A stretch of 41,250 bases of DNA from a candidate division FCPU426 bacterium (GTDB lineage: Bacteria; Oederibacteriota; Muellerivitia; Muellerivitales; Muellerivitaceae), in assembly GCA_003152075.1 (NCBI GenBank), contig PLZG01000080.1:1-41250 (forward strand), written 5' to 3'. Below, in pieces: positions 2,762 through 25,159 of the stretch. Each line of letters begins with the position of its first letter. Positions within the stretch are counted from its first letter, which is position 1. The notes below the pieces were generated by a model. It searched no databases. It saw only the letters and a program-made list of their open reading frames with translations, and was not told where the DNA came from. The position numbers were made by a program, and so were the translations under genes.

Positions 2762-3565
2762 TTGCCTAAGACTTTCGTCGTCCTACCTGTTTACAACGAA
2801 GCGAAAACCCTGGGGAATATCCTCTCGCGCTTAAGTCCAACGGTACACACCATGGTTTGCGTGAACGACGGCTCCCAGGACGACAGTCTCGGGATACTAA
2901 CCAAGTTTGTCCACAAAAGAAAAAATACCTATATCGTCAACCAACCTGCAAATAGCGGAATGGCCGGGGCGCTGAAGGCCGGTTTTTTGTTTGTTCTTTA
3001 CTTGGGTAAAAGGGGGTTGGCCAATGAGGAGGACATCGTTGTTACCATTGACGCCGACGGCCAACATAAACCTGAATATATTCCCCAAATCGTGCGATAT
3101 TTGAAACGGAAAAAGGTAGATGTGGTCTTAACCCGACGGAATTTTTACGTCTATCCCAAATACAAGGTTTTAGGAAATTGGTTTTTGACTAGGACAAATT
3201 CGATTCTTTCGGGAATGAATTATAATGACGTGGAATCAGGGTTGAGATTGCTGAAGGTAAAGACCCTCATACCCATTTTAAGCTACTATACGGGGGTAAA
3301 ATATTCCTGCGCCCAGGAAATCGCGCTGGTTTCCGCGAGATCGGGGTTTAAAATCGATAATGAATTCAAAGTCGATATCGCTTACTACCGGGCAGGGACT
3401 ACGATTTGGGATGGTTTTATTGTCTTGTTCCTAAGTCTTCTTGCGTTCTTTCGCTGCGTTCTGGGTCTCTCGGGCAATGTTTTATTTGATGTGCCCTTAA
3501 TGAGGAGTTCTTTTGACGATTCACGGGCTTTATGGAATCGCAAGGGAAGAAGGGGGAAAGGCTGA
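2762..3565 (+). CDS. Family 2 glycosyltransferase
   Basis: A 267-residue GT-A-fold enzyme. The nucleotide-sugar core is clear: VVLPVYNEAKTL at residues 6-17, CVNDGSQDDS at 33-42 and the metal-binding DxD in TIDADGQHKPEYIP (D97, D99). A C-terminal hydrophobic stretch (GFIVLFLSLLAFF, about residue 220) may be a membrane anchor or surface helix. The start is TTG at 2762, with AAGGA about 6-8 bases upstream; no better in-frame start exists because the frame is closed shortly upstream. It is the first enzyme of the glycan-related locus that follows, and the next gene starts 3 bases after its stop codon. Likely role: transfer of a sugar to a lipid carrier or growing glycan on the cytoplasmic face. 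The donor sugar is unknown. Confidence 0.85.
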   Translation: MPKTFVVLPVYNEAKTLGNILSRLSPTVHTMVCVNDGSQDDSLGILTKFVHKRKNTYIVNQPANSGMAGALKAGFLFVLYLGKRGLANEEDIVVTIDADGQHKPEYIPQIVRYLKRKKVDVVLTRRNFYVYPKYKVLGNWFLTRTNSILSGMNYNDVESGLRLLKVKTLIPILSYYTGVKYSCAQEIALVSARSGFKIDNEFKVDIAYYRAGTTIWDGFIVLFLSLLAFFRCVLGLSGNVLFDVPLMRSSFDDSRALWNRKGRRGKG

Positions 3566-3568
3566 ACA

Positions 3569-3946
3569 ATGGATTTCAATCTTCCGAAGGTCGGCGCTTT
3601 TCTTAGTTGCAACAACATTCAACAGGATGTTTTAAGCAAAAATTATGAATTGAGGGGCGTATTCCAGGGTTTCGGTCCGCCCGGATATCCTTTGGGAGCC
3701 GAATTCATGACCTTCACCCGTTTGTTTCATGACAAGGCGGGAGAGTTTCAGATCGACATCTCGCTTTTTAACGAGAAGGGCGAGAAGATATCGGACAGCC
3801 AACCCCGCAAACTCCTATTTGGTGAAATGCAAATGCATGATTTAATCACCGCCTGGCGTGTTATGTTTCCAGCAGCGGGAATTTATGTTTTTAAGGTTTT
3901 TTGCAATAACCTAAACTTGGGTGAATACAAAATTTTTTGCCGGTAA
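3569..3946 (+). CDS. Hypothetical protein, DUF6941-like
   Basis: A 125-residue soluble protein that starts 3 bases after the GT2 stop codon, so the two are probably co-transcribed. The pattern GAFLSCNNIQQ, LRGVFQGFGPPGYP, then alternating strands (FQIDISLFNEKGEKI; GIYVFKVFCNNLNLGEYKI) suggests a small all-beta sandwich. It recalls DUF6941-type proteins, which share an opening 'C-D-N-V ... G-V-F' layout. No catalytic motif is evident. The resemblance is from memory of the pattern only, so the family call is weak; the gene itself looks real. Confidence 0.55.
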   Translation: MDFNLPKVGAFLSCNNIQQDVLSKNYELRGVFQGFGPPGYPLGAEFMTFTRLFHDKAGEFQIDISLFNEKGEKISDSQPRKLLFGEMQMHDLITAWRVMFPAAGIYVFKVFCNNLNLGEYKIFCR

Positions 3947-4085
3947 TTCGCCCTTTTTGGCCCTTTTGTAAGTGTTAATTGCCAAAAAGTTGCGATATAC
4001 TATGCGCCGTTCCGCACATTTAGGGCCTATTTAGCGTCAAAATTATTGAGCTTCAAAATACCTTCATTGAATTTAAAGGAAAAAC

Positions 4086-7000
4086 GTGGCTAAGAAAGTC
4101 AAAAGCCTTTTAACCACCGACCTTTTACGAAAACCCCTCTTTTGGCTCCTGATCATCATCCTTTTGGGCGGTTTTTTCCGTTTTTATAATTTAGATTGGG
4201 ATTTACAGCATTCCTTCCACCCTGACGAAAGAAACATTCTGGGGCAAACCTCCGCCATCCAGGCTTCGGCGGGTTACAAGGTTGGTTTTTTCGCCTATGG
4301 CCAGTTGCCAGTTTACCTGTACCGAGCTACAGGGGAATTGGTATCCACGCCTCAGTCTTTCATTGATTTTTTCCGCGGGCAGCAAAAGTTAGCCCAGGGG
4401 ATTTATTGGGCTTTTCTCCTGGTTTTATTTGCGGGTATTCTGTGGTTTTTCTCCCAAAAAAGATTTGCGTTTCAAGCCTTTGGGGGGGCCGTTGTTTTGT
4501 TTTTAATGGCCATCTTTTTCAAATGGAATTCCACCCAGTTTACACGCTTCGATGTTTTCACTACCTGGTTTGCCGCTTTGGACGGTCAAAGGGGGTCCCT
4601 TAACTTATTACACTTGACCATTCCAATCCTTCCCGTTGTTTGTTTTGCATTTGTGGCGATAGCGGCTTTTGGAATTTCGGCCTTGATTTCCTATTACCTT
4701 GAAATGGAATGGGTTGGATTGCCTTTTTATTCCGCCTGCGGCGTTACATTTCTCATGGGAGTCGTTCCAGCATTTTTTCCTGACGGATTACATATAACTA
4801 GGAATATGGCGGCCTTGGCCTTCACCCTTATTTTGTGCGCGGGGGCGGTTTGGTTCGCCTGGCTTTCCAGGGTCGGAAGGGTTGTACTGGCCTTGCTGGC
4901 AGTTTGGATTTATTTCGCTTCCCGAGTCCACGGTGGGTTCACCTACACAGGCTATGGGGAATGCATGCTCATCGGTCGATGGTGGTCCGCGCTCTTTTCC
5001 ACCCTGACAATCGGGGCCATTTATATTTTTGTCCATCGGGCCTACAAGAATAATGGGATGGCCTTATTCGCGGCTGCCAGTTTCGCCTTCGCGGTGGTTA
5101 GCATTGAACAAGCCCATTACTGCATTACCGAGTCTTTTATTACTTTGATGTTCGTGGTAGTGGCCCTCTGCGCCCTGGACATTATTGTTGAGGGTGGTTG
5201 GAGAAGTTACCTGACAGCGGGGACGGCCTTCGGACTCTCGATGGCAGCCAAAACCAGCTCCCTTTATTACGTCCTTCCCATCGTTTTGGCCCACCTCATC
5301 TTTATGGCGAAGAGATCGGCTCAAGAATGGGAGCTACAAGATAAAAAAACAAAAGCGAACCGAGAACTTAATTCGGTCCTGGCAGTCGCTCTTTTGGCGG
5401 TCATTCTGGCCATCTTTCCCCTGGTAGGATACAAATTTCAGGGTGTGATTCAGGACCTCTTTACCTTGAACCCATCGCTGGGGCACATGATCTGGATAGT
5501 TTTGTTTTCCGCTCTCACGGGATTGGGTGTGGTTTTTTCACTCTGGGGGTTCACGGAAATTAGGGTCATTCGTGCCCAAATTCCCCAGTGGATCAAGCTG
5601 GCCTCGGCCGGTGGGTTAGGTTTCTTTCTGTTTTGTCTATTGTCGCCTTGGTCCCTCCTTGATTTTGATGGGTTCATGAGTTCCCAAAATTATGAATGGC
5701 ACGTGGTTTCCATTTCGGACGCTTGTTACGTCATTCAATTCAAGGATTCGCCCCGGTACCTTTATCATCTTCTCAATTTGATGCATGTTGAATTGTGGTG
5801 GCCCTTAGGGGTTGTGGTGGTGGCTGGAATGGTTTGGGTTTTGGGAAGGTTTTTGGGAAATCTTTTCCGTCCAGTAAAAAAAGGGTATCTATTGCCTTTG
5901 CCTTTTGCACGGGGGAAGGGCTTCGCTTTTTCATTGCCAGACCTGTTAATCCTTTGTTGGTTCATCCCTTATTTCGGTTTTATCGGTTCCTGGAACACGA
6001 AGTTCATCCGATATATGGTTCCGCTCGTGCCGGCTTTTTGTATTTTTGGGGCCAGGTTTTTAAACGATCTGGTACAAAAATTTAAATCATTCCCATTCAC
6101 CCAATATGTAAGGTCTGCCGTCGCCACCGTAGTTTTGGGAGCCAGTCTATTTTATTCCATGGCCTATATGCATATTTATAGTGTTCCCCACACCTGGATC
6201 GAGTCATCGGTTTGGATGTTTAAAAACGTTCCACAGGGCGCCAAGATCATGACCGAAACTTGGGATGACGGATTGCCCACCGGGGTCGACCATCAAATGG
6301 ACTCTCGTGTTGAAGGAACCATGGGGCCCCAAAACTACGGGCATGGGGACCTGACAATTTATGAGATGCACGGGTTTCCCTCGGACGACTCCCCGGTTAA
6401 GCGGAATTATTACGCCAACATCCTTCAGCAAGGGGATTACATCAGTATCGCTTCAAAAAAAATGTGGTACTCCCTTACCAACTGTACCCCTGAATTTAAA
6501 CCCCATGGATACAATGTTTATCCCATCACTTCCCGGTATTATCGGTGCCTTTGGTCGGGCCTTTTGGGTTTCAAGATGGTCAAGGAATTCCACAGTTTTC
6601 CCAGCTTCCTGGGATGGGAGCATCCCGATGACATGGCCGAGGAGTCCTTCTCGGTTTATGACCATCCTCGGGTTTATTTTTTCAAAAGGTTTGAAACGGT
6701 TTCGCCTGAGCGGATACTCAAACTTCTGGATTCGGATGACTATGTCAAGGGAATCAATCGGGACATCATGCGGACCATCACGCCCGACAACGTGGATTCT
6801 TTTATCGCCGAAAGGCACAAATATTTGGAAGAAACCGGGTTGCTGAAGAAACTGGATGAGGCCGCACCTGTAACGGTTGCGGCGGAGAATCCCGCGAAGC
6901 CGGCAGCGGCCGCCCCCGCCACTGTTGCGGTGGCCGCGGGGTATCTTAAAAAACCATCCAAGAAACCCAACGCCGCAGGAATTGTCCCGGTTCCTGTCGT

Positions 7001-10000
7001 ACCTACCCCGGAAATCAAAATTGATCCCCCGTCGACTGTGCCAGGTTTGCCGGACGATAAAACCCTTGGAGTTTTAAAATCTTACGCCGACCATCCGATG
7101 GTCGAAGATGATATTTCTAAAATACCCGAAGCGCCTGAGGAGAAAACTTCTTACCAGTTCCGAGCGTGGTTTAGCTGGCTATTTCTTTTAATTGTTCTGG
7201 GTTGGCTGGCCTTACCCTTGACCCTCAAGGTAATGGGCCCCCTAGCCTCGGGAGCCTATTCACTCAGCAAAGTCCTGGGTTTTTTCGTTTTTGCCTGGGT
7301 GGTTTGGTTTTTCACCAGCCTTAAATTGGACCATTTCACTGTGGGTTCCTGTTGGGTTTGGTTTTTACTCTTGGCGGCGGGTTCAGCTTATTTTTACTGG
7401 CGCGATCAAAAATCCCTTAAAGCGCTCTATTTAATGCACAAACAATCCTGGCTTATCCAAGAGGGGGCTTTTGCCTTAGCTTTTTTGGTGTTTACATTGG
7501 TGAAGATATACATCCCCAATATCCATGATCCAGTAGGGGAAGGGTATAACGGCGGCGGTGAGGCGGGTATGGATTTTGGGTTTTTGGCCTCGGTGGTTCG
7601 CGGTGAAACATTCCCGCCCCAAAATATGTGGATGGCCGGGTTGCCCATTGGGTATAGCTTTTATTACGGTCACCTGATGATGGGTATTCTCACCAAGACT
7701 TTGGGATTGGTCCCAGCGGTCACCTATAACCTTGCCCTGATCACCCTTTTTGCCATGATTTTCTCCTGCGCATTTGGGTTGGCCTTTGCCTTGTCCGGAC
7801 GGCTCATCAGTGGCTGGATCGCCGGGTTCTTGTGCGCCGTGGCGGGAAACCCAGCGGGCGCGAAACAATATATGGACGTGATTCACCAATGCTTCGCCTC
7901 GATGAGTCTGGGGCCACTAATGCAGCATACCTATGACTTTTTCGGGCCGACGAGGGTAATACCGCCCCTTTCCATCAACGAGTATCCCTATTTCAGCGTT
8001 TTGTATGGCGATATGCACGCCCATACCCTGGCAATGCCTTTCGCCATGTTACTTATTGGGGCCGTCGCCTCACTTTATATGTCGAAGTCGGTTAATCCTT
8101 TTGACTTTAAAAATGACTGGCCGGTCCTGTTAACCATTGGATTTTTGCTTGGGGGGGTCGCTTTTTTGAATTCCTGGGAAATACCTGTCTGGGTAATTTT
8201 TACTGGAATTATTTTGGTAGTTCGCCATCTTTCCACTTTGAATGGCAAAGTCTTACAGAGGGGACTGACTATCGTTTTTGGCCTTTTGGTGGCGGCCCTG
8301 ACTATTTTGGGATGGTGGACCAGGGCCAAACCTGGTTTAGATCCTCACGCGGTAGGAGGAAATACCGCTTACCTGGTTTTCTTTGTTTTGCTCGGATTAG
8401 CCGGTGCGACCATTTGGCTATATCAACAAAAAACAACCGTGATATTTTCAAAGCACTTAGTGGCTATTGCCATCGGTATGGTTGCTCTTTTTACCGCGAC
8501 AGGTCTCTTATGGGCACCTTTTTTCGCTGGATTTCATCCTCAGCAGAGCACCGTTTTGTGGGTGTTGCCCACAATTCGGACCTCCGTCAGGAATTATTTT
8601 AATGTTCATGGATTTTTTCTTGCGGTCATTTTATTGAGTTTTGTGACCGCTTACTCCGATGAAATCGTTAGGTGGATGGGAAGGGCCAAATTAAAAAAAC
8701 ACCGGCCCAAACCTTTGATTGATCAATTGCTGGAGTGGTTAGAGAAAATGGTGTTACCCGAAAACGCGGTCCAAGGAATGGTCACTCTTGGTTTTGCGAC
8801 TTTGGGAGTGATTTGGGGAGCTTCCTGGATTGAGTGGACTGAGCCCCCGGATAAGACCGCCTATTCACAGTTTTTGGGGATCGTGGCGGTAGGATTGTTG
8901 TTGGCCGCTCTTTATTTGAGGAAGCGGTGGGAATTGTGGCTGGCCGAAGCCACATTGGTTTTGCTCTGGATGGCGGTGTTGGTCCTCCATGGAATACACC
9001 TGATCCAAGATTTGCCCTTCACGCTGAACCTAGGTTTCTTTTCCCTTTTGTGGCTTGTGGCGTTTTTCCACCTGGGATTGGCGGTTAAGGTTTTCAAAAA
9101 CCGCAATCTTTCTTTCGCCTATCTTTTAGTTTCATGTTTCTTTTTTATCACGGCCTTCGTGGAAATTTTTGCCATGAGTGAGTACTTTGGATTCGGCGAA
9201 GGGATGCGGAACAATACACTGTTTAAGTATTACATTATCGCGTGGGAAATGGCGTCCATCACTGCTGGAGTCTTTTTGCCGCAGATATTTGATTTTTTCG
9301 TGAAATTGTTCAGGTTGGTGAAAAAGGAATGGCCGGTGCCCCGAAGGGTAATGTTGGTTTTCTCAGGTTTTTTCATTTTTGTCCTTCTTTGGGCTTTGCT
9401 GGAGAGCTTTTATCCCTACATGCAATCATCCCTTGTTTACATCTCCGACATTGTTCTTGTCGGGGGGATTCTCGCCTGGGGGCTGTTGGAAAAATGGTTC
9501 AAAAAATGGAATTCGAAACGGATATTTATTGGCGTCTCTGCCGCCCTCATCTTTATTTCCTTGATTGCGTCAATTCCGCAGGGTAACGGTAGGGGATTGG
9601 CCCTCGTCCAACATTGGGCCGTGGATTTATGCGTTGGGTTTATATTTCCGGCCGCTTTAGCCTTCGCCCTAGTAAGCCTTGGTTATTTGTTGATGGAAGG
9701 TCGCAAGGATATTGGGAGGAGAATGGCTTCCTATGGTTGGATCGCATTGGTGGCGGGATTGGGCCTTCTCGTATCCATCTACCCTTTTGCGGCCAGTGTC
9801 AGGAAATGCCACGGTTTCTTCAATTCCATCCGGCAACAATGGGGTGGTTTCGTTGCCGGGCCCACATTAAACGGTCTCTCCTATATCCATCGTTCGAACC
9901 CGGGAGATGACGCGGCCATTCGTTTTTTAAACGACCATGTTCCTGGCCAGCCCTGTTTGATGGAGTTTGTGGGCGCGGGATATAACACTTGGGGATCCAG

Positions 10001-10328
10001 AATGTCGATTTTCACGGGAATTCCAGCACTCATGGGTTGGGATGGGCATGTGGGGGAATGGGTTGGAGCAAGATTGGGCGACGATATTCGAAACCGTGTT
10101 TCCGCCGTACAGCAAATCTTCAATACGACAGACGCTCCCTTGGCGCAAAAAATGTTGGATGCCTACGGCGTGAGATTGGTGATGGTAGGCTTGAATGAAA
10201 AGCATGGGGCTGCGGAGAAACCTGGCTATCTCCCCGAAGGTTTGGCCAAATTCGCTGGTTTTTTGCCATTAATTTACAAGAATCCCCAAGTAGAAATTTA
10301 TTATAATCCTCCACCGGCCACTCGTTAA
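4086..10328 (+). CDS. Giant membrane protein: PMT-like GT-C fused to Chlor_Arch_YYY (DUF2298)
   Basis: 2080 residues with many membrane segments. Residues 1-700 look like a PMT/GT39-type GT-C enzyme: a first membrane helix (about 18-31), then a first outer loop with HPDERN (D47, E48), where GT-C enzymes keep their catalytic acid, and FAYGQLPVYLYR at about 69-80. Residues 700-905 form a soluble outer domain. A Pro/Ala/Lys-rich linker spans about 924-1018. From about 1025 onward the protein is a Chlor_Arch_YYY (TIGR03662) unit, with GYSFYYGHLMMG, GDMHAHTLAMPF (about 1308) and NNTLFKYY (about 1708) landmarks and a C-terminal soluble end. The start is GTG at 4086 with AAAGGA upstream; a TATACT -10-like box lies at 3996-4001 with no clear -35. 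Predicted role: use of a lipid-linked sugar at the outer face of the membrane. The fusion is read directly from one unbroken frame; the reaction is inferred. Confidence 0.85.
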   Translation: MAKKVKSLLTTDLLRKPLFWLLIIILLGGFFRFYNLDWDLQHSFHPDERNILGQTSAIQASAGYKVGFFAYGQLPVYLYRATGELVSTPQSFIDFFRGQQKLAQGIYWAFLLVLFAGILWFFSQKRFAFQAFGGAVVLFLMAIFFKWNSTQFTRFDVFTTWFAALDGQRGSLNLLHLTIPILPVVCFAFVAIAAFGISALISYYLEMEWVGLPFYSACGVTFLMGVVPAFFPDGLHITRNMAALAFTLILCAGAVWFAWLSRVGRVVLALLAVWIYFASRVHGGFTYTGYGECMLIGRWWSALFSTLTIGAIYIFVHRAYKNNGMALFAAASFAFAVVSIEQAHYCITESFITLMFVVVALCALDIIVEGGWRSYLTAGTAFGLSMAAKTSSLYYVLPIVLAHLIFMAKRSAQEWELQDKKTKANRELNSVLAVALLAVILAIFPLVGYKFQGVIQDLFTLNPSLGHMIWIVLFSALTGLGVVFSLWGFTEIRVIRAQIPQWIKLASAGGLGFFLFCLLSPWSLLDFDGFMSSQNYEWHVVSISDACYVIQFKDSPRYLYHLLNLMHVELWWPLGVVVVAGMVWVLGRFLGNLFRPVKKGYLLPLPFARGKGFAFSLPDLLILCWFIPYFGFIGSWNTKFIRYMVPLVPAFCIFGARFLNDLVQKFKSFPFTQYVRSAVATVVLGASLFYSMAYMHIYSVPHTWIESSVWMFKNVPQGAKIMTETWDDGLPTGVDHQMDSRVEGTMGPQNYGHGDLTIYEMHGFPSDDSPVKRNYYANILQQGDYISIASKKMWYSLTNCTPEFKPHGYNVYPITSRYYRCLWSGLLGFKMVKEFHSFPSFLGWEHPDDMAEESFSVYDHPRVYFFKRFETVSPERILKLLDSDDYVKGINRDIMRTITPDNVDSFIAERHKYLEETGLLKKLDEAAPVTVAAENPAKPAAAAPATVAVAAGYLKKPSKKPNAAGIVPVPVVPTPEIKIDPPSTVPGLPDDKTLGVLKSYADHPMVEDDISKIPEAPEEKTSYQFRAWFSWLFLLIVLGWLALPLTLKVMGPLASGAYSLSKVLGFFVFAWVVWFFTSLKLDHFTVGSCWVWFLLLAAGSAYFYWRDQKSLKALYLMHKQSWLIQEGAFALAFLVFTLVKIYIPNIHDPVGEGYNGGGEAGMDFGFLASVVRGETFPPQNMWMAGLPIGYSFYYGHLMMGILTKTLGLVPAVTYNLALITLFAMIFSCAFGLAFALSGRLISGWIAGFLCAVAGNPAGAKQYMDVIHQCFASMSLGPLMQHTYDFFGPTRVIPPLSINEYPYFSVLYGDMHAHTLAMPFAMLLIGAVASLYMSKSVNPFDFKNDWPVLLTIGFLLGGVAFLNSWEIPVWVIFTGIILVVRHLSTLNGKVLQRGLTIVFGLLVAALTILGWWTRAKPGLDPHAVGGNTAYLVFFVLLGLAGATIWLYQQKTTVIFSKHLVAIAIGMVALFTATGLLWAPFFAGFHPQQSTVLWVLPTIRTSVRNYFNVHGFFLAVILLSFVTAYSDEIVRWMGRAKLKKHRPKPLIDQLLEWLEKMVLPENAVQGMVTLGFATLGVIWGASWIEWTEPPDKTAYSQFLGIVAVGLLLAALYLRKRWELWLAEATLVLLWMAVLVLHGIHLIQDLPFTLNLGFFSLLWLVAFFHLGLAVKVFKNRNLSFAYLLVSCFFFITAFVEIFAMSEYFGFGEGMRNNTLFKYYIIAWEMASITAGVFLPQIFDFFVKLFRLVKKEWPVPRRVMLVFSGFFIFVLLWALLESFYPYMQSSLVYISDIVLVGGILAWGLLEKWFKKWNSKRIFIGVSAALIFISLIASIPQGNGRGLALVQHWAVDLCVGFIFPAALAFALVSLGYLLMEGRKDIGRRMASYGWIALVAGLGLLVSIYPFAASVRKCHGFFNSIRQQWGGFVAGPTLNGLSYIHRSNPGDDAAIRFLNDHVPGQPCLMEFVGAGYNTWGSRMSIFTGIPALMGWDGHVGEWVGARLGDDIRNRVSAVQQIFNTTDAPLAQKMLDAYGVRLVMVGLNEKHGAAEKPGYLPEGLAKFAGFLPLIYKNPQVEIYYNPPPATR

Positions 10329-10379
10329 TTTTCTGGTTCCGGCGGACAACAAACAGCTTCATTTCTCGGAGGGCTTTTG

Positions 10380-12902: not shown

Positions 12903-12969
12903 GCGGAGCGGTAGTGGTTGTATGTGGGTGACATTTTTTGCCGTTAAAAATTTCTGATGGAGGACAGGC

Positions 12970-13992
12970 ATGCTGAAGATAGGCGATCGTGAAGTGAATA
13001 ACAAAGAATTAACGGCCGGAATTTTATTCGTGCTGGTAGCTCTTACACTGCTATGGGTTATGTTTCCCCCTTTTAAACCCGCGCCAACGGTTTTACAAAT
13101 TGGCACGGTGGATCCGATTTTAATGCAAGGCGGCCAACCGGGGAGTAAAGCAGGGCAGTTCAGTTACCCAAGGGGCGTGGCGGTAGACAGTCACGGGGAT
13201 ATCTATGTGGCTGACAGCCGAAACCACCGGATTCAAAAGATCGACGGCAAAACCGGGAAGTATTTGCTGGAATTTGGGGGGCTGTTTAAAGTCGATGGCG
13301 GCGACCGTAAAAAAGTTGAGGGAACCGCGCCTGGCAAGATGCAAGAACCTAATGACGTAACAATTGGCCCAGATGACATGGTCTATGTTATGGATACTTG
13401 GAACAGCCGAATTCAGGTATTTTCGCCAAAGGGAAAGAACAAGAAGGTTTTCACGACAGATGACGGATTTTTCGCGCCGCGTGGCATTGTGGTGGACCCC
13501 AATGGATTTGTTTATGTGGCGGACACGGGAAAACACCGGATCGTAAAATTTGACCCGAAGGGAAACAAGATCCGGGCTTGGGGATCTAAGGGGGAGAAGG
13601 AAGGGGAGTTTAACGAACCCATTGGGGTGGCGCTTGACCAAGCGGGGAACCTTTATGTCGCGGATCGGTTAAATTTTCGCATTCAGGTTTTCAACTCGGA
13701 CGGCCAATATGTCAAGGAATGGCCGATTAAGGGTTGGGCGAAGGATCAAATAGACATGGAACCCCACCTGGCTTTGGATAAAGTTAATTCGGTACTTTAT
13801 GTTTCGGATGGCCGGGGGAAAAAAGTTTATGCCTATCATCTTGATGGAACCCTATTTTCAACCCTTGAAAACGATTCGCAAAACCGTCCATTATTCGCGG
13901 TCCCGATTGGGGTGGCGGTTGATAAGGATGGGAATCTTTATGTTGTAGACGCCTCAATGGCCAGAATATTGAAGATAAAGGGCCAACATTAA
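12970..13992 (+). CDS. Membrane-anchored NHL-repeat beta-propeller 1
   Basis: 340 residues. A short cytoplasmic head is followed by one membrane helix (about residues 14-32, ending in VMFPPF) that probably acts as an uncleaved signal anchor. The rest is a run of NHL repeats, each with the pattern PxGVAVDxxGxxYVADxxNHRIQKF, for example FSYPRGVAVDSHGDIYVADS (about 65-84), and further copies near 13460-13560, 13610-13710 and 13900-13980. Such propellers are protein- or glycan-binding platforms. Its position between YYY-type membrane proteins and a paralogue suggests an outer-face partner of those proteins. The start is ATG at 12970 with GGAGG upstream. Ligand unknown. Confidence 0.85.
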   Translation: MLKIGDREVNNKELTAGILFVLVALTLLWVMFPPFKPAPTVLQIGTVDPILMQGGQPGSKAGQFSYPRGVAVDSHGDIYVADSRNHRIQKIDGKTGKYLLEFGGLFKVDGGDRKKVEGTAPGKMQEPNDVTIGPDDMVYVMDTWNSRIQVFSPKGKNKKVFTTDDGFFAPRGIVVDPNGFVYVADTGKHRIVKFDPKGNKIRAWGSKGEKEGEFNEPIGVALDQAGNLYVADRLNFRIQVFNSDGQYVKEWPIKGWAKDQIDMEPHLALDKVNSVLYVSDGRGKKVYAYHLDGTLFSTLENDSQNRPLFAVPIGVAVDKDGNLYVVDASMARILKIKGQH

Positions 13993-14012
13993 TTTCCATC
14001 GGGAGCATTTGA

Positions 14013-15008
14013 ATGGCTAAGAAGAAAAAAGGCAAAAAAAACAAAAAAAAGCCCAGTAAGGGAATAAAAGTATTTCTGGGCTTACTTGGTGTTCTGCTGT
14101 TAATCCTATTTTTGCGTTGGGGTTTCGACCAAATCAATGGAGCCATTAACGCCTCAAAGTCAATCGACGTGACCGTTGATTTGGAGTTGGGCACCCATGG
14201 AGATGGGCCTGGTCAATTTTTGGAACCCTGGGGAGTAGCTACCGATTCGAACGACAATTTTTATGTCGCAGATTTTGGCGGGCACCGTATATTAAAATTC
14301 AATCCCGAGGGAGAGCAGACCCTCTCGTTTGGCAAATCGGGTAAGGAAGAAGGTGAATTCAACCAGCCCAGCGGCCTATTTGTGGACTTGAAGGGAGATA
14401 TATACGTTTGCGATACATTCAACCATCGGATCCAGAAATTCGATTTAGAAGGCAATTTCCTGAAAGTATGGAATCACAATTTTTTCGGGCCCAGGTCAAT
14501 CACGGGAGACAACCGGAATCGGATCTATGTGGTTGATACGGGAAACCACAAAATCCAGGTATTTGATCCAGAGGGAAATTTCTTGTCGGAATTTGGCTGT
14601 TTTGGAACTGGTGACGGTAAATTTAGGGAACCAGTCGGAAGTACGGTAGATTCGGACGGTTTTTTATATGTTGCGGACTCGGATAACACGAGGATCCAAA
14701 AATTCGATCCGGTTGGTAAATTTGTTTCTTCCTTCAAGGTTTCAACCTGGAGGGGGAAGAATGAGGAATCCCCTTACCTGGCCTTCGGCCAGGGATTCCT
14801 TTACGCCTCTAATGCCAGCGCCCACACTGTCCTTAAATATGACCTGTCAGGAAAATTAGTCGCGATTTTGAAGAAAAAGGACAAGGAAGGTTTCTCCACC
14901 GCGACGGGAGTCGCCGCTGACCATCAAAATCGACTTTATGTGGTCGAAAGGGGCCCGGGAAAAGTGGCAAGGTTTTCGATTCCATCGGCTCCAGCCCCTT
15001 CCAAGTAA
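14013..15008 (+). CDS. Membrane-anchored NHL-repeat beta-propeller 2
   Basis: 331 residues, paralogous in design to the gene 20 bases upstream. A very basic head (Lys-rich, residues 1-18) precedes one membrane helix (about 19-35), which predicts the propeller lies outside the cytoplasm. NHL repeats follow, such as LEPWGVATDSNDNFYVADF, PSGLFVDLKGDIYVCDTFNH and EPVGSTVDSDGFLYVADSDN, about six in all. No catalytic motif is visible. The stop codon overlaps the start of the next gene (TAATG), so translation is probably coupled to the methyltransferase. The tandem pair may form hetero-oligomers or bind two partners; this is inference. Confidence 0.85.
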   Translation: MAKKKKGKKNKKKPSKGIKVFLGLLGVLLLILFLRWGFDQINGAINASKSIDVTVDLELGTHGDGPGQFLEPWGVATDSNDNFYVADFGGHRILKFNPEGEQTLSFGKSGKEEGEFNQPSGLFVDLKGDIYVCDTFNHRIQKFDLEGNFLKVWNHNFFGPRSITGDNRNRIYVVDTGNHKIQVFDPEGNFLSEFGCFGTGDGKFREPVGSTVDSDGFLYVADSDNTRIQKFDPVGKFVSSFKVSTWRGKNEESPYLAFGQGFLYASNASAHTVLKYDLSGKLVAILKKKDKEGFSTATGVAADHQNRLYVVERGPGKVARFSIPSAPAPSK

Positions 15009-15727
15009 TGGGTGTGTCTGGCTTAAAAGACACCTGGGATGGACAACTGGAAACCCTCGACGATCTCTCGGAAGCGGTTCACTATAACCGGTGGATCTAC
15101 GGCATGATGAAACCCTATTTAGGGTCCAAAGTTATCGAGATTGGCTGCGGAATTGGAAATATGACGGGGTTACTTGCTCAAGGACGAGACGTTCTTGGGA
15201 TTGATATCCATCCAGGGTATGTCAAAAAAGCACGGTCCAAATTCAAAAACAACAAAAACATTTCCTTTCGGGTTGTAGACATGGGGAAAAAATTCCCTTC
15301 TTTTAACAGTTTTAAACCCGATACGATTGTTTGCATCAATGTTTTCGAGCATATTCAAGCTGATAGGCTATTTTTAAAAGAATGCCTTAAACTCCTCCCG
15401 CCCCGGGGAAGGATTCTCATTTTTGTTCCGGCGCTTCCATCCCTTTTCGGAAGCATGGATTCAAGTTACGGCCATTTTCGAAGGTATGACAAGGATGATT
15501 TAATCGGGAAGATGAAGGGAGTTGGTTTTTCCGTATTAAAATGCCGGTATCTAAATTTATTGGGTGTGTTGGGGTGGTGGTGGAACGGCAAAGTATTAAA
15601 AAAAGCGATCGTTCCGAAGTCTCAAATCCTAATTTATGACAAGATCATTCAATGGATCGCGCCGGTTGAGAAATGGTTGCCCAAACCCATTGGCCTTTCT
15701 CTTTTCTGCGCGGGCGTGAAACTCTAG
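15008..15727 (+). CDS. Class I SAM-dependent methyltransferase
   Basis: 239 residues with a Rossmann-type SAM site: motif I EIGCGIGNMTGLL (residues 44-56), an acidic residue after the second strand in LGIDIHPGY, and the motif IV-like VCINVFEHIQ. The C-terminal half (FGSMDSSYGHFRRYDKDDL) is typical of methyltransferases found in glycan and O-antigen loci. The ATG shares its first base with the upstream stop codon. The likely target is a sugar, lipid or small molecule of the envelope pathway; the true acceptor is not visible. Confidence 0.85.
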   Translation: MGVSGLKDTWDGQLETLDDLSEAVHYNRWIYGMMKPYLGSKVIEIGCGIGNMTGLLAQGRDVLGIDIHPGYVKKARSKFKNNKNISFRVVDMGKKFPSFNSFKPDTIVCINVFEHIQADRLFLKECLKLLPPRGRILIFVPALPSLFGSMDSSYGHFRRYDKDDLIGKMKGVGFSVLKCRYLNLLGVLGWWWNGKVLKKAIVPKSQILIYDKIIQWIAPVEKWLPKPIGLSLFCAGVKL

Positions 15728-15771
15728 TTCTGAGCCGAGATTCTGAAATGCCTCAGCCAAAGGAAAAGTGG

Positions 15772-16500
15772 ATGTCCAAAAGTCATAATAAGACCATCAT
15801 CATTGTCCCCACCTATAATGAAATAGGTAACATTGAAATGGTATACCGGAAGATATTTAAAGCCACCAAAGCATGCGATTTGCTCATTGTGGATGATAAT
15901 TCACCCGATGGTACGGGGGCACTCGCCGAGGGAATCGCGAGGAAGGACAAAAGAGTCGCCGTTCTTCACCGGTCAGGAAAATTGGGACTGGGGTCCGCCT
16001 ATGTCCATGGGATGCAATACGCGCTTAAGAAAGATTATGAAAACGTGATCGCCATGGACGCGGACTTGTCCCATGATCCTGTTAATCTTCCTCGAATGCT
16101 TGAAAATATAAAAAATAATGACCTGGTTATCGGATCCCGCTATGTGAAGGATGGGGGAATGGTCAATTGGAACGCTCGCCGATTTCTTATCAGCCAAATC
16201 GCTAATTTATATTGCCGATTTATGTTGGGGTTAACCCAAGCGGATTGTTCGGGGGGCTATAAGTGTTATCGGGCGGATCTTCTTCGGAAAATTGGTTTGG
16301 CCAACATCTTTTCGCCTGGGTATTCCTTTCAGGTGGAAATACTTTACCGGGCAATTCGCGCCGGCGCGAAGGTCTTGGAAATTCCTATTATTTTCGTGAA
16401 TCGCCACGAAGGGGAAAGTAAGCTATCTACCAGGGAATTGGTGGGATTTGGTTGGACCGTACTAAAGCTTAGGTGGCTCTCCTGGCTTGTGAAGGTTTAA
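15772..16500 (+). CDS. DPM1-like polyprenyl-phosphate glycosyltransferase (GT2)
   Basis: 242 residues from the ATG at 15772, chosen because AAAGGA sits 8 bases upstream and because starting earlier (15673) would overlap the methyltransferase. Core motifs: IIIVPTYNEIGNI (9-21), LLIVDDNSPDGTG (37-49), AMDADLSHDP (94-103) and IGSRYVKDGG. This is the pattern of polyprenol-monophosphomannose synthases, which move a sugar from GDP-mannose (or a related donor) onto a polyprenyl phosphate. There is no C-terminal membrane domain, as in the soluble bacterial and DPM1-type forms. It would supply the lipid-linked donor for the GT-C-like proteins of this locus. The family is secure; mannose as the sugar is an assumption. 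Confidence 0.88.
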   Translation: MSKSHNKTIIIVPTYNEIGNIEMVYRKIFKATKACDLLIVDDNSPDGTGALAEGIARKDKRVAVLHRSGKLGLGSAYVHGMQYALKKDYENVIAMDADLSHDPVNLPRMLENIKNNDLVIGSRYVKDGGMVNWNARRFLISQIANLYCRFMLGLTQADCSGGYKCYRADLLRKIGLANIFSPGYSFQVEILYRAIRAGAKVLEIPIIFVNRHEGESKLSTRELVGFGWTVLKLRWLSWLVKV

Positions 16501-16620
16501 CCCTAAATTAAAAGCCTATATTGTTTGGTCATTTGAAAACCTTGATTATGTCTAGGTGGTTTGTGTTTCAGAATAATGATTTTTCCCCGTCGGGATTTTG
16601 CTTAAGGAGTGGTTCGAATC

Positions 16621-17694
16621 ATGGGCAAAAAAACAGTCTCTTCTCAGATAAAGCCAATTCAGCGCTTAAGGCACCCAGACGCGCTTATTTTTGTATTAGG
16701 TGGAATAATTGGGGCCATGGTTAACTTTGGAGTGACATGGTTCCTTCTTGAAAAAATAGACATGAACCCCTTTGTTTCTTTTTTTTGCGGGACCATCGCG
16801 AACCAATTATTCCATCATTTGTATTACAACGTGGTTTACGTGAACCAGGAGATAAGGCTTAAGACACCCCTGCCTTTGCATTTATTCTTTTATTTATGCG
16901 TCGCGGGCTTCAGCTCATTATTGTTTTATGTTTTAAACGCACAATTTTCTTTTTCGTTGCTTATCTCTGTCGGCCTCAGCATCACCATCCTTTCGTTTGC
17001 AAACGTGTTTTTGATCAGGATATCCACTTTTGGATCGGCCCAATTGGCCGAGGTGGAGTATCGGGAAATGAACGACAGTTATTACGACGATCAAACGGAT
17101 GAGGAAAAAGTTAGTCGGTTCAGGGCTTGGTATCATCGTTCCCGTTATGAGCGCATGACGAAATTCGTCGGGGAACATTTCCGCAAAGGCATGAAAATGG
17201 CGGATTTGGGTTGCGCCAATTGCTTGTGGAATATCCATGGATTACCGGTGGTAGGTGTGGATATCAACGACAAAATGCTGAAATGGGCGAAAAGAAACAA
17301 TCGATTGAAGGATTATAAAGTGACGGCTAACTTGGCTCAAACGGGGTTAAAGACTAAAGCTTTTGACTTGGTTTTAATGAGTGAGACCTTGGAGCATATC
17401 TTGGATTTGCGCGGGGTTTTATCCGAAGTTAACCGGGTATTAAAGGATAAAGGCACTTTCTTGATCACTGTGCCCTATGACTATTTTTTAGGGCCCTTTT
17501 TCATCTTGTTCAATTTGAATTGCATTTACATGGGATACATCCGGGGAAGCATCTATCACAAATACCGTTGTGGCCATATTAATCACTTTACCAAAAGCCG
17601 ATTAAGCCAAGTTCTAGCTGAAAATGGATTAAAGCTTAAAAGATGTTTCGTGGTGAATGGATTGTTACTTTACGCGGTTGCGGAAAAGGCTTAG
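16621..17694 (+). CDS. GtrA-like membrane domain fused to SAM methyltransferase
   Basis: 357 residues from the ATG at 16621. The upstream GTG at 16609 lies inside the AAGGAG ribosome site, so it is not the start. Residues about 20-145 form a four-helix GtrA-like domain (FVLGGIIGAMVNFGVTWFLL; FVSFFCGTIANQLFHHLYYN), a family linked to moving polyprenyl-phosphate sugars across the membrane. From about 160 a soluble class I methyltransferase follows, with MADLGCANCLWNIHG (motif I, about 193-207), VVGVDINDKML and DLVLMSETLEHI. The two modules lie in one unbroken frame. The design suggests methylation of a lipid-linked or membrane-proximal sugar. A strong terminator follows. The fusion is seen directly; the substrate is inferred. 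Confidence 0.8.
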   Translation: MGKKTVSSQIKPIQRLRHPDALIFVLGGIIGAMVNFGVTWFLLEKIDMNPFVSFFCGTIANQLFHHLYYNVVYVNQEIRLKTPLPLHLFFYLCVAGFSSLLFYVLNAQFSFSLLISVGLSITILSFANVFLIRISTFGSAQLAEVEYREMNDSYYDDQTDEEKVSRFRAWYHRSRYERMTKFVGEHFRKGMKMADLGCANCLWNIHGLPVVGVDINDKMLKWAKRNNRLKDYKVTANLAQTGLKTKAFDLVLMSETLEHILDLRGVLSEVNRVLKDKGTFLITVPYDYFLGPFFILFNLNCIYMGYIRGSIYHKYRCGHINHFTKSRLSQVLAENGLKLKRCFVVNGLLLYAVAEKA

Positions 17695-17724
17695 TTAGGC
17701 CTTTGAAATCTGAAGTTGGGTAAT

Positions 17725-17758
17725 AAAAAAAGGACGGCCTGAGGGCCGTCCTTTTTTT
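17725..17758. terminator. Bidirectional intrinsic terminator
   Basis: A near-perfect hairpin: seven A, stem GGACGGCC, loop TGAG, stem GGCCGTCC, seven T. It lies between the convergent GtrA fusion gene and the Agl23-like gene and, being symmetrical with A and T tracts on both sides, should stop transcription from both strands. Confidence 0.93.
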
Positions 17759-17787
17759 ATTAGTTGAATCTTTAAGTGTTGCTTATT

Positions 17788-20223
17788 TTAGTGTTTGGAA
17801 GAGGAGGAGTTGTTTTCTGATTTGTGAGTGTGTTTCTTCGCTTCCGGTGTGGCTGAGGGGGTCGGCTCGGGCTTGGGGTAGTCGGAGGGAATATCAGCCC
17901 TGTCGGTACCCGTAAACCCGTATTTTTGAGCCAGATCAGGCCGGACCCACATCCGCATATTGTAGCTTCCCAAGTCGGACCAAACTTCCCTGTAAAGAAT
18001 CCATTTTTTTAAGTCACTCCAATCCACCATGTCTGGGCGAGCTGGTTTTAAAGGCAGGAAATTACTGAAGAACCAGTCGAAAAATAAACCCATATTCATA
18101 TCGGAACCAGGAAAGCCTTTTTTGAACCAAGCAGGAATCCACCAAACTCGAAGTTTGTATTTCCGGTTGACGTAACCGGCTTGGCTCAAGATGGGATAGG
18201 CCTGGGCGTCAGATTCCGTGCCCGTTAAAATAATTGGATTGTCGGCTACAGTGATCGTCGCCGGATGGTTCCGTCTGGCGAAATCCCTGAGCATCCATGC
18301 GAAAGGCCAGGAGCATTTGTCCTCAATCGTCAAGGCCATGCCGTCATGCAACCCCTTTTCGGCATCACTCGTCCCCGCGGGAGCGGTTGAGTCCGGGCCT
18401 CCGGTCTCCCCGTATGAAATGGTCCGGATGATTTTTTCCACATCTTTTACATCAGGCCCCGATTGGACATAAACCAAAGGCTCAACCGGATTTGCCTCAT
18501 GATAAAAACTTAAAAGAACAGCTGAATGCAGGGAATAGGTCATCAGCAATCCGAAAACACTGATTACGGCGATCCGAGCGCATTTCCATAATTGCACTGT
18601 TGGTTTTGACTCGAATACTTGGCCCATGAAGTAAGCCGTTAATAGCAAGGCCGGGGTGAGTGGGTGGAGTATCAACCAAGGCATTTTTTCGCCCGCCCAT
18701 GAAAACAAAACCAACGAGCCGATGTACCAGTAGGAGAGGAAAAGGGGAATGGTTTTTGGTTTGAAAAACCCGTAATAAACCATGGCAACGGCTGAAAACA
18801 GAAAGGAAACCAACTCATTGGCAGGGAGCTGAACCAAATAATAATAAGGCGGTTGGTCACCGCGGTGAACATCATGCTGATCCCACCAGTATTGCAAGCC
18901 GCCGAAGGCGCCGTTGTAAATCGCATAGAGAAGTCCATGTATCCGTCCTAGAAAATCTCCCTGGTTGGCGCCCACGGTAAAAAAGGTTGTGAACAGCAAG
19001 GTGAATATAATTCCAAATATTGAAACGGAACCGGTTAAGGCGGGAGCGACATTCGTCAACCATAACCAACAGAACCAAAAGAGCAGTCCAAAGTAAGCCA
19101 TCAATAACAAGAAGGAAAATATGGTTGGTTGGTTGAGGTGAAGAGCGGGAATCCTGAGGGCCACCAGAGTTACAACCCACCAGAGACTAAATCCAAAAAG
19201 CGGCCACTGAATTTTTTCAACCCTAAGGTCCATGATGATTTTCCATAAATCGCTTCCAGCTTTTTGCTGCTTTAAATTTGTTTGCCATTGGATGAAAAGC
19301 TGAAAAACGGTGTACAAAAAGGCAGCTCCCAAAAGAAGGCCAAAAATTGGCATTCGGTAAGACTCGGTTTTTGGAATGATTAATTGGGTCAATATTCCAA
19401 TGGCGGTTAGACCACCCGCGATGAAAACGTCAGCCCATGGTAAAAGACGAATAAAGAGGTAGGTGCCAATAACCGCAATCGTTAAAAAAATTGATTCTTT
19501 GGTACAGAAGGCGATGCTGAAGCCTAGGGAAGCGATCCAAAGATCGAGAGGAAGGCGCGAACGGTAATAGCGAATCAGAAACACCACCATGAGAAGGGTA
19601 GCGCCGGCGATATAGGCATCCTCACGGGTAAATCGGTCAAAGTACATGAAGCTCGGGGAGAAAACGATCATGGTGGTGGCTATAAAGGCTCCGAGACGGC
19701 CCCAAAATGGGGCAAGAAACATGGCTAAAACCACAGTAAGTATTCCAAAGGAAGCGGCTAGGTATCGGGAAGTGGCGTTGGATACCCCGAATAAGTAGTA
19801 CATGAAGGCGTTGCCGTGAAACTGGAATGGGCCATGCATCATGGGGTTGTATTCGTAATCACCATCTTTAAACAATTGGTAAGAATAAAAGGCGTGCATG
19901 CTTTCATCGTGATGGTGTGGCTTGTCACCAAGATGATGAAATCGGGTGAAAATCGTGATCAGAATTAAGGCGACATAAGCGATTTCAAGCCAAGAAAAGG
20001 AAAAACTCCCCTTGATAACGGCGGAAGGGGATTGAGTTAAAGTTTTTTCTTTGGGCTCGGATTCGGTTTGTGACGAAACTTTGATATTTTTGGGGGGTGG
20101 AATTGGTTTCGAGGGCTTTTCATTTTGGCTAGGGGCTTGAAGTTTGGTCCCGCATTGCTCACAAAAATTATTTGAAACGGGGTTTTTAGAACCACATTTA
20201 CCGCATACCTTCAATTCAGACAT
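17788..20223 (-). CDS. Agl23-like (TIGR03663-type) GT-C-like membrane protein with N-terminal zinc ribbon
   Basis: 811 residues, the only long minus-strand gene in the window. An N-terminal zinc ribbon has C7, C10, C21 and C24 (CGKC...CEQC). A Pro/Ser/Lys linker follows, then membrane helices from about residue 78. The first outer loop holds HHHDESMHAF (D106, E107) and MMHGPFQF (H130, G131, P132), followed by conserved arginines (R153; DRFTRED near 196-202). DE, HGP and two arginines are the landmarks known for TIGR03663, a family named for archaeal Agl23 that is usually found with Chlor_Arch_YYY genes, as here. The tail is His/Ser-rich and disordered. AAGGAG precedes the start, and a strong promoter lies upstream. 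Expected role: membrane glycosylation or flippase-associated. The biochemical activity is not established for the family. Confidence 0.85.
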   Translation of the reverse strand: MSELKVCGKCGSKNPVSNNFCEQCGTKLQAPSQNEKPSKPIPPPKNIKVSSQTESEPKEKTLTQSPSAVIKGSFSFSWLEIAYVALILITIFTRFHHLGDKPHHHDESMHAFYSYQLFKDGDYEYNPMMHGPFQFHGNAFMYYLFGVSNATSRYLAASFGILTVVLAMFLAPFWGRLGAFIATTMIVFSPSFMYFDRFTREDAYIAGATLLMVVFLIRYYRSRLPLDLWIASLGFSIAFCTKESIFLTIAVIGTYLFIRLLPWADVFIAGGLTAIGILTQLIIPKTESYRMPIFGLLLGAAFLYTVFQLFIQWQTNLKQQKAGSDLWKIIMDLRVEKIQWPLFGFSLWWVVTLVALRIPALHLNQPTIFSFLLLMAYFGLLFWFCWLWLTNVAPALTGSVSIFGIIFTLLFTTFFTVGANQGDFLGRIHGLLYAIYNGAFGGLQYWWDQHDVHRGDQPPYYYLVQLPANELVSFLFSAVAMVYYGFFKPKTIPLFLSYWYIGSLVLFSWAGEKMPWLILHPLTPALLLTAYFMGQVFESKPTVQLWKCARIAVISVFGLLMTYSLHSAVLLSFYHEANPVEPLVYVQSGPDVKDVEKIIRTISYGETGGPDSTAPAGTSDAEKGLHDGMALTIEDKCSWPFAWMLRDFARRNHPATITVADNPIILTGTESDAQAYPILSQAGYVNRKYKLRVWWIPAWFKKGFPGSDMNMGLFFDWFFSNFLPLKPARPDMVDWSDLKKWILYREVWSDLGSYNMRMWVRPDLAQKYGFTGTDRADIPSDYPKPEPTPSATPEAKKHTHKSENNSSSSKH

Positions 20224-23947: not shown

Positions 23948-25159
23948 ATGCCTGTTTTGCTCCGCTATTGCCTGAACGCCCTTTGGCCCCCCTTTTTGCT
24001 TGCCACAGGTTGTTTGGTTTTTGTTTTTAATCTACTTTTCTACCTTGTCCCGTTTTTGACGAACCTCTTTGTGTACCAAGCGGGGATTCTTTATTCTTTT
24101 CTCTTGTTGCTTTATGTGCAGCCGGGTATTTGGATTCTAGCCATCCCCGCTGGTTTTTTAGCGGCACTGCTTATTGTTTATGGGCGTCTAAGCGCGGATG
24201 GGGAACTAATGGCCATCGAATCTTGCGGTTTTTCGACATGGGGTCTTGTTTGGCCCATGTTCGTCGTTTCGCTTCTCCTTAGCCTGTTTTTAATAGTATT
24301 CATGGATATTTTGCTTCCTTGGGGAAATGTTTCTTATCTTAAACTGGATTACAAAGTGATGAACGAGAAGGCATCAATTATTGTCAAGGAACGGATTTTT
24401 ATGGATGGGTTCGAGGGTTATACACTTCATGTTGATAGAAAGGATGACGCTCAAAATACCCTAAACGATGTCAAAATTTTTGCCTTTAAAGACAAAGATA
24501 AAAAATATCCCTATCGGGTGATATGGGCGGATCAAGGGGTTCTGCATCAAGACCCTCATAATTTTCATGCCATTTTGGACTTGGGCCAAGGGCGCATGCA
24601 GCAAATTGACGCAAAAAAACACCAAGGAAATTTTGATGAGTTTTTCGGTATGAAATTCAAGAGTTGTTCTTTAGATTTAAGCATTAACCAGTTTCATGAT
24701 GGCCCCATCGATTTTCGTGATCCTCGAAATATTTCCATGCGAGAGTTGGCGGCGGACATCAAAGAAAAAAAAGAAAAAAATCAGGACGTTCGATATGCCG
24801 AATCAGAGTTTCACAAAAAACTTTCCCTTCCTTTTTCCGCTTTGGCTTTCGCCTTTATTGGAATTCCGCTGGGATTAACCGTAAGGAAAGGTTCCTTGAT
24901 CGGTTATTTTTATGCCCTCCTTTTGGCGGCCATTTATTATTATTTTATCTTATTTGGCGACGCGGTGGGCCCTATGGGGGTATTACCTCCAAGTGTGGCG
25001 ATGTGGCTTCCAAACGCGGGCTTGGTCGCCATTGGCTTGGTTTTAGTGTACCGGTTAATCCACAAACATGATTTTTGGGCAAACCCCTTCCGAAAAACAA
25101 AATATTCGCCCACGAATTTTATAAATTCAATGCAGCCCACGGACATAAAGCCAGAATGA
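23948..25159 (+). CDS. LptF/LptG-family LPS export permease
   Basis: 403 residues with the layout of the YjgP/YjgQ family: three N-terminal membrane helices, a periplasmic beta-jellyroll domain (about 140-270) and three C-terminal helices. Family landmarks are YGRLSADGELMAIESCGFS after helix 2 and FHKKLSLPFSALAFAFIGIPLGL before helix 4. In the Lpt machine this permease pairs with LptB ATPase to pull LPS from the inner membrane. Only one such permease is here, so the LptF/LptG partner must be elsewhere, and the sequence alone does not say which it is. Its stop overlaps the lptD start (ATGA), tying it to outer-membrane delivery. Confidence 0.9.
   Translation: MPVLLRYCLNALWPPFLLATGCLVFVFNLLFYLVPFLTNLFVYQAGILYSFLLLLYVQPGIWILAIPAGFLAALLIVYGRLSADGELMAIESCGFSTWGLVWPMFVVSLLLSLFLIVFMDILLPWGNVSYLKLDYKVMNEKASIIVKERIFMDGFEGYTLHVDRKDDAQNTLNDVKIFAFKDKDKKYPYRVIWADQGVLHQDPHNFHAILDLGQGRMQQIDAKKHQGNFDEFFGMKFKSCSLDLSINQFHDGPIDFRDPRNISMRELAADIKEKKEKNQDVRYAESEFHKKLSLPFSALAFAFIGIPLGLTVRKGSLIGYFYALLLAAIYYYFILFGDAVGPMGVLPPSVAMWLPNAGLVAIGLVLVYRLIHKHDFWANPFRKTKYSPTNFINSMQPTDIKPE

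Follow-up and report, generated by a model that had tools for sequence, protein, structure and literature searches.

We analyzed a window of 41,250 nucleotides (contig PLZG01000080.1, assembly GCA_003152075.1, positions 1 to 41,250, forward strand) from a bacterium of candidate division FCPU426, also called Goldbacteria, and in it a gene cluster at positions 2762 to 20223 that encodes two proteins of the YYY family (TIGR03662, Chlor_Arch_YYY), one Agl23-like protein (TIGR03663), two NHL propellers, and accompanying glycosyltransferases and methyltransferases. FCPU426 is also the main label of the named close relatives, whose proteins are 57 to 69% identical to YYY2.

Gene content of the locus

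The genes from 2762 to 17694 lie on one strand with mostly short gaps or overlaps, the tight packing described in a first-pass annotation made from the sequence, and the Agl23 gene faces them. Every gene named in that annotation was recovered with the same coordinates, its GtrA call alone being below threshold, and a gene for a DUF6941 protein (3569-3946) had been missing from its list. Lpt genes at 23948-27303 of the window point to a two-membrane envelope in the host. The features are as follows.

2762-3565, + strand: GT2a, family 2 glycosyltransferase (GT2) with one C-terminal membrane segment (PF00535, E 3.5e-19)
3569-3946, + strand: DUF6941 small protein, lineage-specific accessory (PF22091, 29 bits; cut-off, 27)
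4086-7160, + strand: YYY1 N-terminal domain, predicted PMT-type glycosyltransferase of the C fold (GT-C), from profile comparison with solved PMTs and hhalign comparison with Agl23; HPDER motif at 4218-4232
7161-10328, + strand: YYY1 C-terminal YYY domain (TIGR03662; residue comparison)
10377-12902, + strand: YYY2, predicted single-YYY GT-C protein with an outer C-terminal domain (TIGR03662; AlphaFold; Foldseek)
10743-10763 and 11268-11282, + strand: putative catalytic motifs of YYY2, ExxMD and DxHxH, respectively
11784-11834, + strand: zinc ribbon of YYY2 (C470, C473, C483, C486), inserted in a loop predicted to be cytoplasmic
12970-13992, + strand: NHL1, membrane-anchored NHL propeller, membrane segment at residues 12-38 (PF01436, E 1.8e-45)
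14013-15008, + strand: NHL2, membrane-anchored NHL propeller, membrane segment at residues 14-41 (PF01436, E 1.8e-35)
15008-15727, + strand: MT1, class I methyltransferase, accessory (PF08241, E 1.7e-15)
15772-16500, + strand: GT2b, DPM1-type polyprenyl-phosphate-hexose synthase (5mlz, E 7e-29; PF00535, E 6.5e-29)
16609-17694, + strand: membrane domain with three membrane segments, possibly GtrA-like, fused to a methyltransferase (PF08241, E 2.1e-15)
17788-20223, - strand: Agl23-like GT-C protein (TIGR03663, 228.5 bits); HHDE at 19903-19914, HGP at 19828-19836
20152-20205, - strand: Agl23 N-terminal zinc ribbon (C7, C10, C21, C24; PF13240, 24 bits, just below the cut-off)

The DPM1-like synthase proposed earlier is GT2b, which matched the dolichol-phosphate mannose synthase of Pyrococcus (5mlz) at E 7.3e-29; its start was moved from the open reading frame start at 15673 to the likely start at 15772, past the MT1 stop. 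The additional GT2 of the same proposal corresponds to GT2a. A methyltransferase and a GtrA-methyltransferase fusion had also been called: the methyltransferase domains were found in both proteins, as were the membrane segments of the fusion, and the GtrA assignment did not hold, with PF04138 scoring 12.8 bits (E 0.14) on the 16609-17694 protein against a cut-off of 26.1.

YYY proteins

Both YYY proteins exceeded the curated TIGR03662 cut-off of 300.25 bits (YYY1 [2080 amino acids], 333.6 bits; YYY2 [841 amino acids], 508.4 bits), which bears out their original assignment. The YYYxG motif reads ISYYYFGY in YYY2 and is degenerate in YYY1 (YSFYYG). A single-sequence YYY2 query of the named genomes gave no match; an alignment query recovered the relatives. 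Because a sequence search of the PDB with YYY2 yielded zinc-ribbon proteins and noise only, with no match of the YYY domain to solved proteins, the fold was predicted. The AlphaFold model of YYY2 had a mean predicted local distance difference test score of 90.5 and a predicted TM-score (pTM) of 0.93, and all eight PDB matches found by Foldseek at E < 0.001 were GT-C enzymes (best E, 1.1e-7). AglB, DPY19, AftA, PglB, STT3, and ArnT were among the proteins matched. Only the matches to GT-C enzymes are convincing, and the model predicts with high confidence that YYY2 has a GT-C-like fold.

Residues E125, M128, D146, W148, E288, D298, H300, H302, D358, D597, R605, N607, and H748 were identical in all 69 single YYY homologs, which stem from archaea and bacteria, and the position of D129 was D or E in every one. 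By helix count on the model, E125 lies in the predicted first outer loop. Metal binding in AglB involves a first-loop Asp together with a D-x-H motif, to which ExxMD and DxHxH of YYY bear an apparent resemblance. E125, D146, D298, H300, and H302 are putative active-site residues of YYY2. The C-terminal YYY domain of YYY1 retains the E, M, D, and DxHxH residues, while D146 is replaced by N and the YYY motif by SFY. As this domain is partly degenerate, the single YYY protein is the likelier enzyme. In a genome of the same genus (G016), YYY1 is split into frames of 1665 and 417 amino acids by one TGA, through decay or assembly error (L027/L047; here L numbers denote the cluster stretches of relatives, G000 the genome of the window, and other G numbers the genomes sampled).

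The N-terminal 1000 residues of YYY1 had no match in Pfam. The profile of this domain matched solved PMTs (9i5k, E 6.4e-7; 6p25, E 2e-5) and, by hhalign, Agl23 (probability, 98%; E 2.3e-13); P46, D47, and E48 were invariant in 18 of 18 homologs, nearly all of which have HPDER. Profile similarity and the DE pair both mark it as a predicted GT-C domain of the PMT/ArnT type. hhalign comparison of YYY was negative with Agl23 (3%) and gave 52% with the YYY1 N-terminal domain; to judge from these profiles, YYY and Agl23/YYY1-N are two GT-C types that are not close, with YYY appearing as a distinct GT-C branch.

Agl23 and its pairing with YYY

The 811-residue Agl23-like protein scored 228.5 bits with TIGR03663 (cut-off, 126.25) and 35 bits with Pfam PMT, and its profile matched ArnT (5ezm, E 2.9e-5). 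The DE, HGP, and Arg landmarks noticed at first pass are present and highly conserved: D106, E107, H130, G131, R153, R197, E243, and E512 were invariant in 48 homologs, and P132 was kept in 47 of 48. TIGR03663 carries a flippase name in NCBIfam although its sequence looks transferase-like. In one genome of the same family, the Agl23 genes are duplicated in tandem (L029:1726-6667).

The co-occurrence of TIGR03662 and TIGR03663 was already known from a TIGRFAM comment, on which the first-pass annotation drew, and can now be quantified. With cut-offs of 1e-40 and 1e-25, both families occurred in the same 31 of 70 genomes of an archaeal phylum (that of a Methanosarcinaceae record) and in the same 41 of 61 genomes of Chloroflexota. 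Across these 131 genomes, which are related and hence not independent events, 72 had both families, 59 had neither, and none had a single one. Haloferax volcanii, used as a control, has both. Linkage does not explain the pattern, since in several archaea the two genes are distant on the same chromosome. Among 25 genomes of the window's own phylum, the discordant ones were G001 (a weak Agl23 match of 135.7 bits and no YYY), G010 (the contig stops just past YYY), and G005 (weak YYY fragments only). Because the families share the same genomes across the sampled archaea and Chloroflexota, YYY and Agl23 probably work as a pair.

In the FCPU426 group, C4 zinc ribbons are found both at the N terminus of Agl23 and in the single YYY protein (loop 470-486, which the helix count places in the cytoplasm). 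Both ribbons were present in 20 loci and neither in 36, with no discordant locus; the CxxC-CxxC pattern of Agl23 was seen in 20 of 20 FCPU426-group loci versus 0 of 36 others, and the ribbon cysteines of YYY2 are invariant in 13 members of the phylum, the ribbon being absent beyond the group. The paired ribbons may represent one event in one lineage; their presence in both partners suggests a contact between Agl23 and YYY on the cytoplasmic side.

NHL propellers

NHL1 and NHL2 each have a single N-terminal membrane segment, and the strength of their NHL matches leaves the earlier call of two anchored propellers in place. In 15 Chloroflexota-type proteins, TIGR03663 is followed by a C-terminal NHL propeller (the curated model confirmed 5 of the 15 as well as a sixth, weaker case, and a purpose-built profile the rest), and in one protein from Tritonobacter a propeller follows TIGR03662. 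Such fusions make the propeller part of the putative enzyme. The predicted structure of one of them (L062) contains a six-bladed NHL propeller; the propeller fold is certain, but how it sits relative to the GT-C portion is not (pTM, 0.68). The Foldseek list for this model was filled by propellers and hence is uninformative on the GT-C portion.

The window propellers are nearer to the fused ones, which come from another phylum, than to nearly all paralogs of their own genome. Among the paralogs examined, the best own-genome match scored 152 bits for NHL1 and 130 bits for NHL2, versus 213 and 210 bits, respectively, for the best fused propeller; a few fused propellers score lower than the best own-genome paralog does. 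Together, the fusions and this closeness favor the reading of NHL1 and NHL2 as outer GT-C domains in detached form, as far as sequence comparison can tell.

An identification of the propellers with the scytonemin protein ScyF (NF035926) was rejected (164.9 and 159.9 bits; cut-off, 350). NHL repeats are abundant in G000, with 120 matches in several dozen open reading frames, some longer than 3000 amino acids. Large PMT_2 proteins with PA14, one of which also has NHL, occur near YYY clusters (L034:1781-5347 and L102:1-6251) and form a further combination of GT-C with outer domains.

Conservation of the neighborhood

Within the window's own family and order (L027, L028, L029, L031, and L032), GT2a, DUF6941, YYY1, YYY2, NHL1, NHL2, MT1, and GT2b are kept as a group that Agl23 closes, except that MT1 is missing from L029 and L031. 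DUF6941 keeps its place across the family, and GT2a is kept upstream of DUF6941-YYY1 in L028 and L029 and truncated in L027. Distant families of the phylum have YYY, Agl23, two NHL genes, a PF01943 flippase, and a DPM1-type GT2, the last being retained by almost every family examined for which the sequence sufficed. YYY and Agl23 mostly adjoin in Chloroflexota, where PF03706 and a PF01593 flavoprotein frequently come next, and archaeal clusters are built from the same parts (Agl23, a PF01593 enzyme, GT2, YYY, and PF03706). Among 76 named loci with room, Agl23 adjoined YYY in 45, lay 2 to 5 genes off in 10, and was not seen in 21, several of which end at a contig edge. Flippase-like genes accompany many Agl23 loci (PF03706 in 20 and PF01943 in 10, never both; neither in 26, many of them on short contigs), which is an argument for flipping by a protein other than Agl23 in many cases.

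The amine-oxidase-like PF01593 protein recurs in archaeal and Chloroflexota YYY-Agl23 clusters (L062:14615-15952, L083:16107-17429, L130:6299-7567, and L128:7058-8350); none was seen in FCPU426 clusters. One archaeal cluster has a tubulin-like CetZ gene between YYY and Agl23 (L128:8471-9646). In distant FCPU426 families (L040:16963-18414, L053:18733-20181, and their kin), the cluster is followed by a protein of about 482 amino acids, with a radical-SAM and a B12-binding domain in L040, and by more GT2 genes, which may indicate that the sugar or lipid is modified. L053, L049, and L065, which are titled Methylomirabilis, Proteobacteria, and Spirochaetia, have FCPU426-type clusters, and their bin labels are probably wrong. 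Elsewhere in the window, 21772-23811 encodes a secreted-looking protein of 679 amino acids, largely made of proline-rich LPPLPGD-type repeats; it adjoins PorV-like and Lpt genes and had no match in a Pfam search.

Proposed function and alternative explanations

We propose, with a probability of about 0.7, that the cluster encodes a glycosylation machine at the outer face of the inner membrane, built on an Agl23-YYY GT-C pair with the propellers as outer domains. GT2b, on the cytoplasmic side, would load a hexose onto polyprenyl phosphate, and the resulting lipid-linked sugar would be turned outward by a flippase; Agl23, the PMT-type N-terminal domain of YYY1, and the YYY domains would then pass the sugar to an acceptor outside, which the propellers may hold or recognize. 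Agl23 and YYY would function as a pair and probably belong to one complex. A membrane glycosylation machine had been suggested at first pass, and the two grounds on which that suggestion could have fallen both speak for it. FCPU426 relatives with enough sequence keep YYY-NHL-NHL-DPM1, with Agl23 at the end or beside YYY; and the large proteins have candidate active-site acids, invariant in the predicted outer loops of GT-C-like YYY2 in 69 homologs and present as a DE pair in 48 of 48 Agl23 proteins and 18 of 18 YYY1 N-terminal domains. The role of the propellers as outer partners, one of two suggested there, is strongly supported by the natural fusions, and the same fusions disfavor the other, that of substrates.

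Several observations weigh against this proposal. The TM-scores between YYY2 and known GT-C structures are low (0.27 to 0.50), so that YYY2 would be a remote GT-C relative; the YYY domain of YYY1 lacks E125, D129, and H748 in four distant FCPU426 loci (L033, L036, L057, and L064); and the window's own flippase candidate has no above-threshold match (PF04138, 12.8 bits). In addition, the one tested family member, Agl23 of Haloarcula hispanica, reportedly flips lipid-linked sugars: the purified protein moves M5GN2-PP-Dol in liposomes (PMC11182771).

Agl23 might accordingly be mainly a flippase, with YYY as the transferase and the flipped lipid-linked sugar as its donor. The translocation in liposomes, the suppression of a yeast rft1 deletion by the same H. 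hispanica protein (PMC11182771), and the obligate pairing with YYY would all fit such a flippase-transferase pair, but the kinship with PMT and ArnT, the invariant DE pair, and the many invariant polar residues would be unneeded for flipping alone, and a PF01943 or PF03706 gene is already present in many clusters; we regard this explanation as unlikely. It is likewise unlikely that YYY is a non-catalytic GT-C-like partner that positions Agl23 or the acceptor. The four YYY1 proteins that lack conserved residues indicate that some domains work without them, and the similarity to known GT-C enzymes is modest, but E125, D146, E288, D298, H300, H302, D597, R605, and H748, kept in 69 of 69 homologs, form the pattern of an enzyme site. 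That the propellers are glycoprotein substrates, or independent binding proteins encoded nearby, would agree with their separate genes and with the many NHL proteins of the genome; we consider it very improbable, given the fusion of the same propeller family to Agl23 (15 loci) and YYY (one) and the greater closeness of the window propellers to these fusions than to nearly all of their own paralogs. An ordinary mixed envelope operon without special coupling, to which the variation of MT1, the GtrA-like methyltransferase, and DUF6941 between genera and the opposite strand of Agl23 in the window's bacterial family might point, is hardly credible in view of the perfect co-occurrence of even unlinked genes, the fusions, and the paired zinc ribbons.

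An Agl23-YYY glycosylation machine could take a more specific form, which we put forward tentatively: an obligate hetero-oligomer of two GT-C enzymes, with NHL caps outside and, in Goldbacteria, zinc ribbons joining the partners inside. If true, this would be an uncharacterized envelope-glycosylation machine common to archaea and several bacterial phyla. TIGR03662 (DUF2298) was previously without an assigned function, and an open-access literature search found no paper on the function of DUF2298; the family now has a predicted GT-C-like fold, candidate active-site residues, and an exceptionless tie to Agl23 in the sampled genomes of the archaeal phylum and Chloroflexota. Which protein flips and which transfers is a question testable in tractable archaea such as H. 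volcanii.

Comparison with known systems

The nearest parallel is Agl22/Agl23 of H. hispanica, which act in the synthesis and utilization of lipid-linked hexose (cited in PMC11182771). There, as proposed for GT2b and Agl23, a lipid-linked-sugar glycosyltransferase is combined with a TIGR03663-type protein; translocation or utilization of lipid-linked sugars by TIGR03663 is known, within the cited parts of that source, for the H. hispanica member only. The window goes beyond it with a pair of YYY proteins, the NHL propellers, and the zinc ribbons, and the parts of PMC11182771 on which we draw make no mention of YYY. ArnT, PMT, and the bacterial and yeast O-mannosyltransferases would share with the window proteins the GT-C fold, polyprenyl-phosphate-sugar donors, and a DE pair in the first outer loop, with remote similarity (E 2.9e-5 for Agl23 and 6.4e-7 for YYY1-N); to our knowledge, these enzymes have no YYY partner or NHL domain. 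The YYY2 model was best matched by three GT-C enzymes that carry outer domains at their C termini (AglB, DPY19, and AftA), including the C-terminal domain of AglB, but at 10 to 13% identity and with the low TM-scores given above, and YYY has extra N-terminal helices and invariant motifs of its own. In GtrA-GtrB-Gtr serotype glucosylation, a lipid-phosphate-sugar synthase, a flippase, and a GT-C transferase are separate genes. Unlike that system, the window has propellers, two to three predicted GT-C modules, and a possible GtrA domain that scores below threshold, but it appears to share the division of synthase, flippase, and GT-C transferase among genes.

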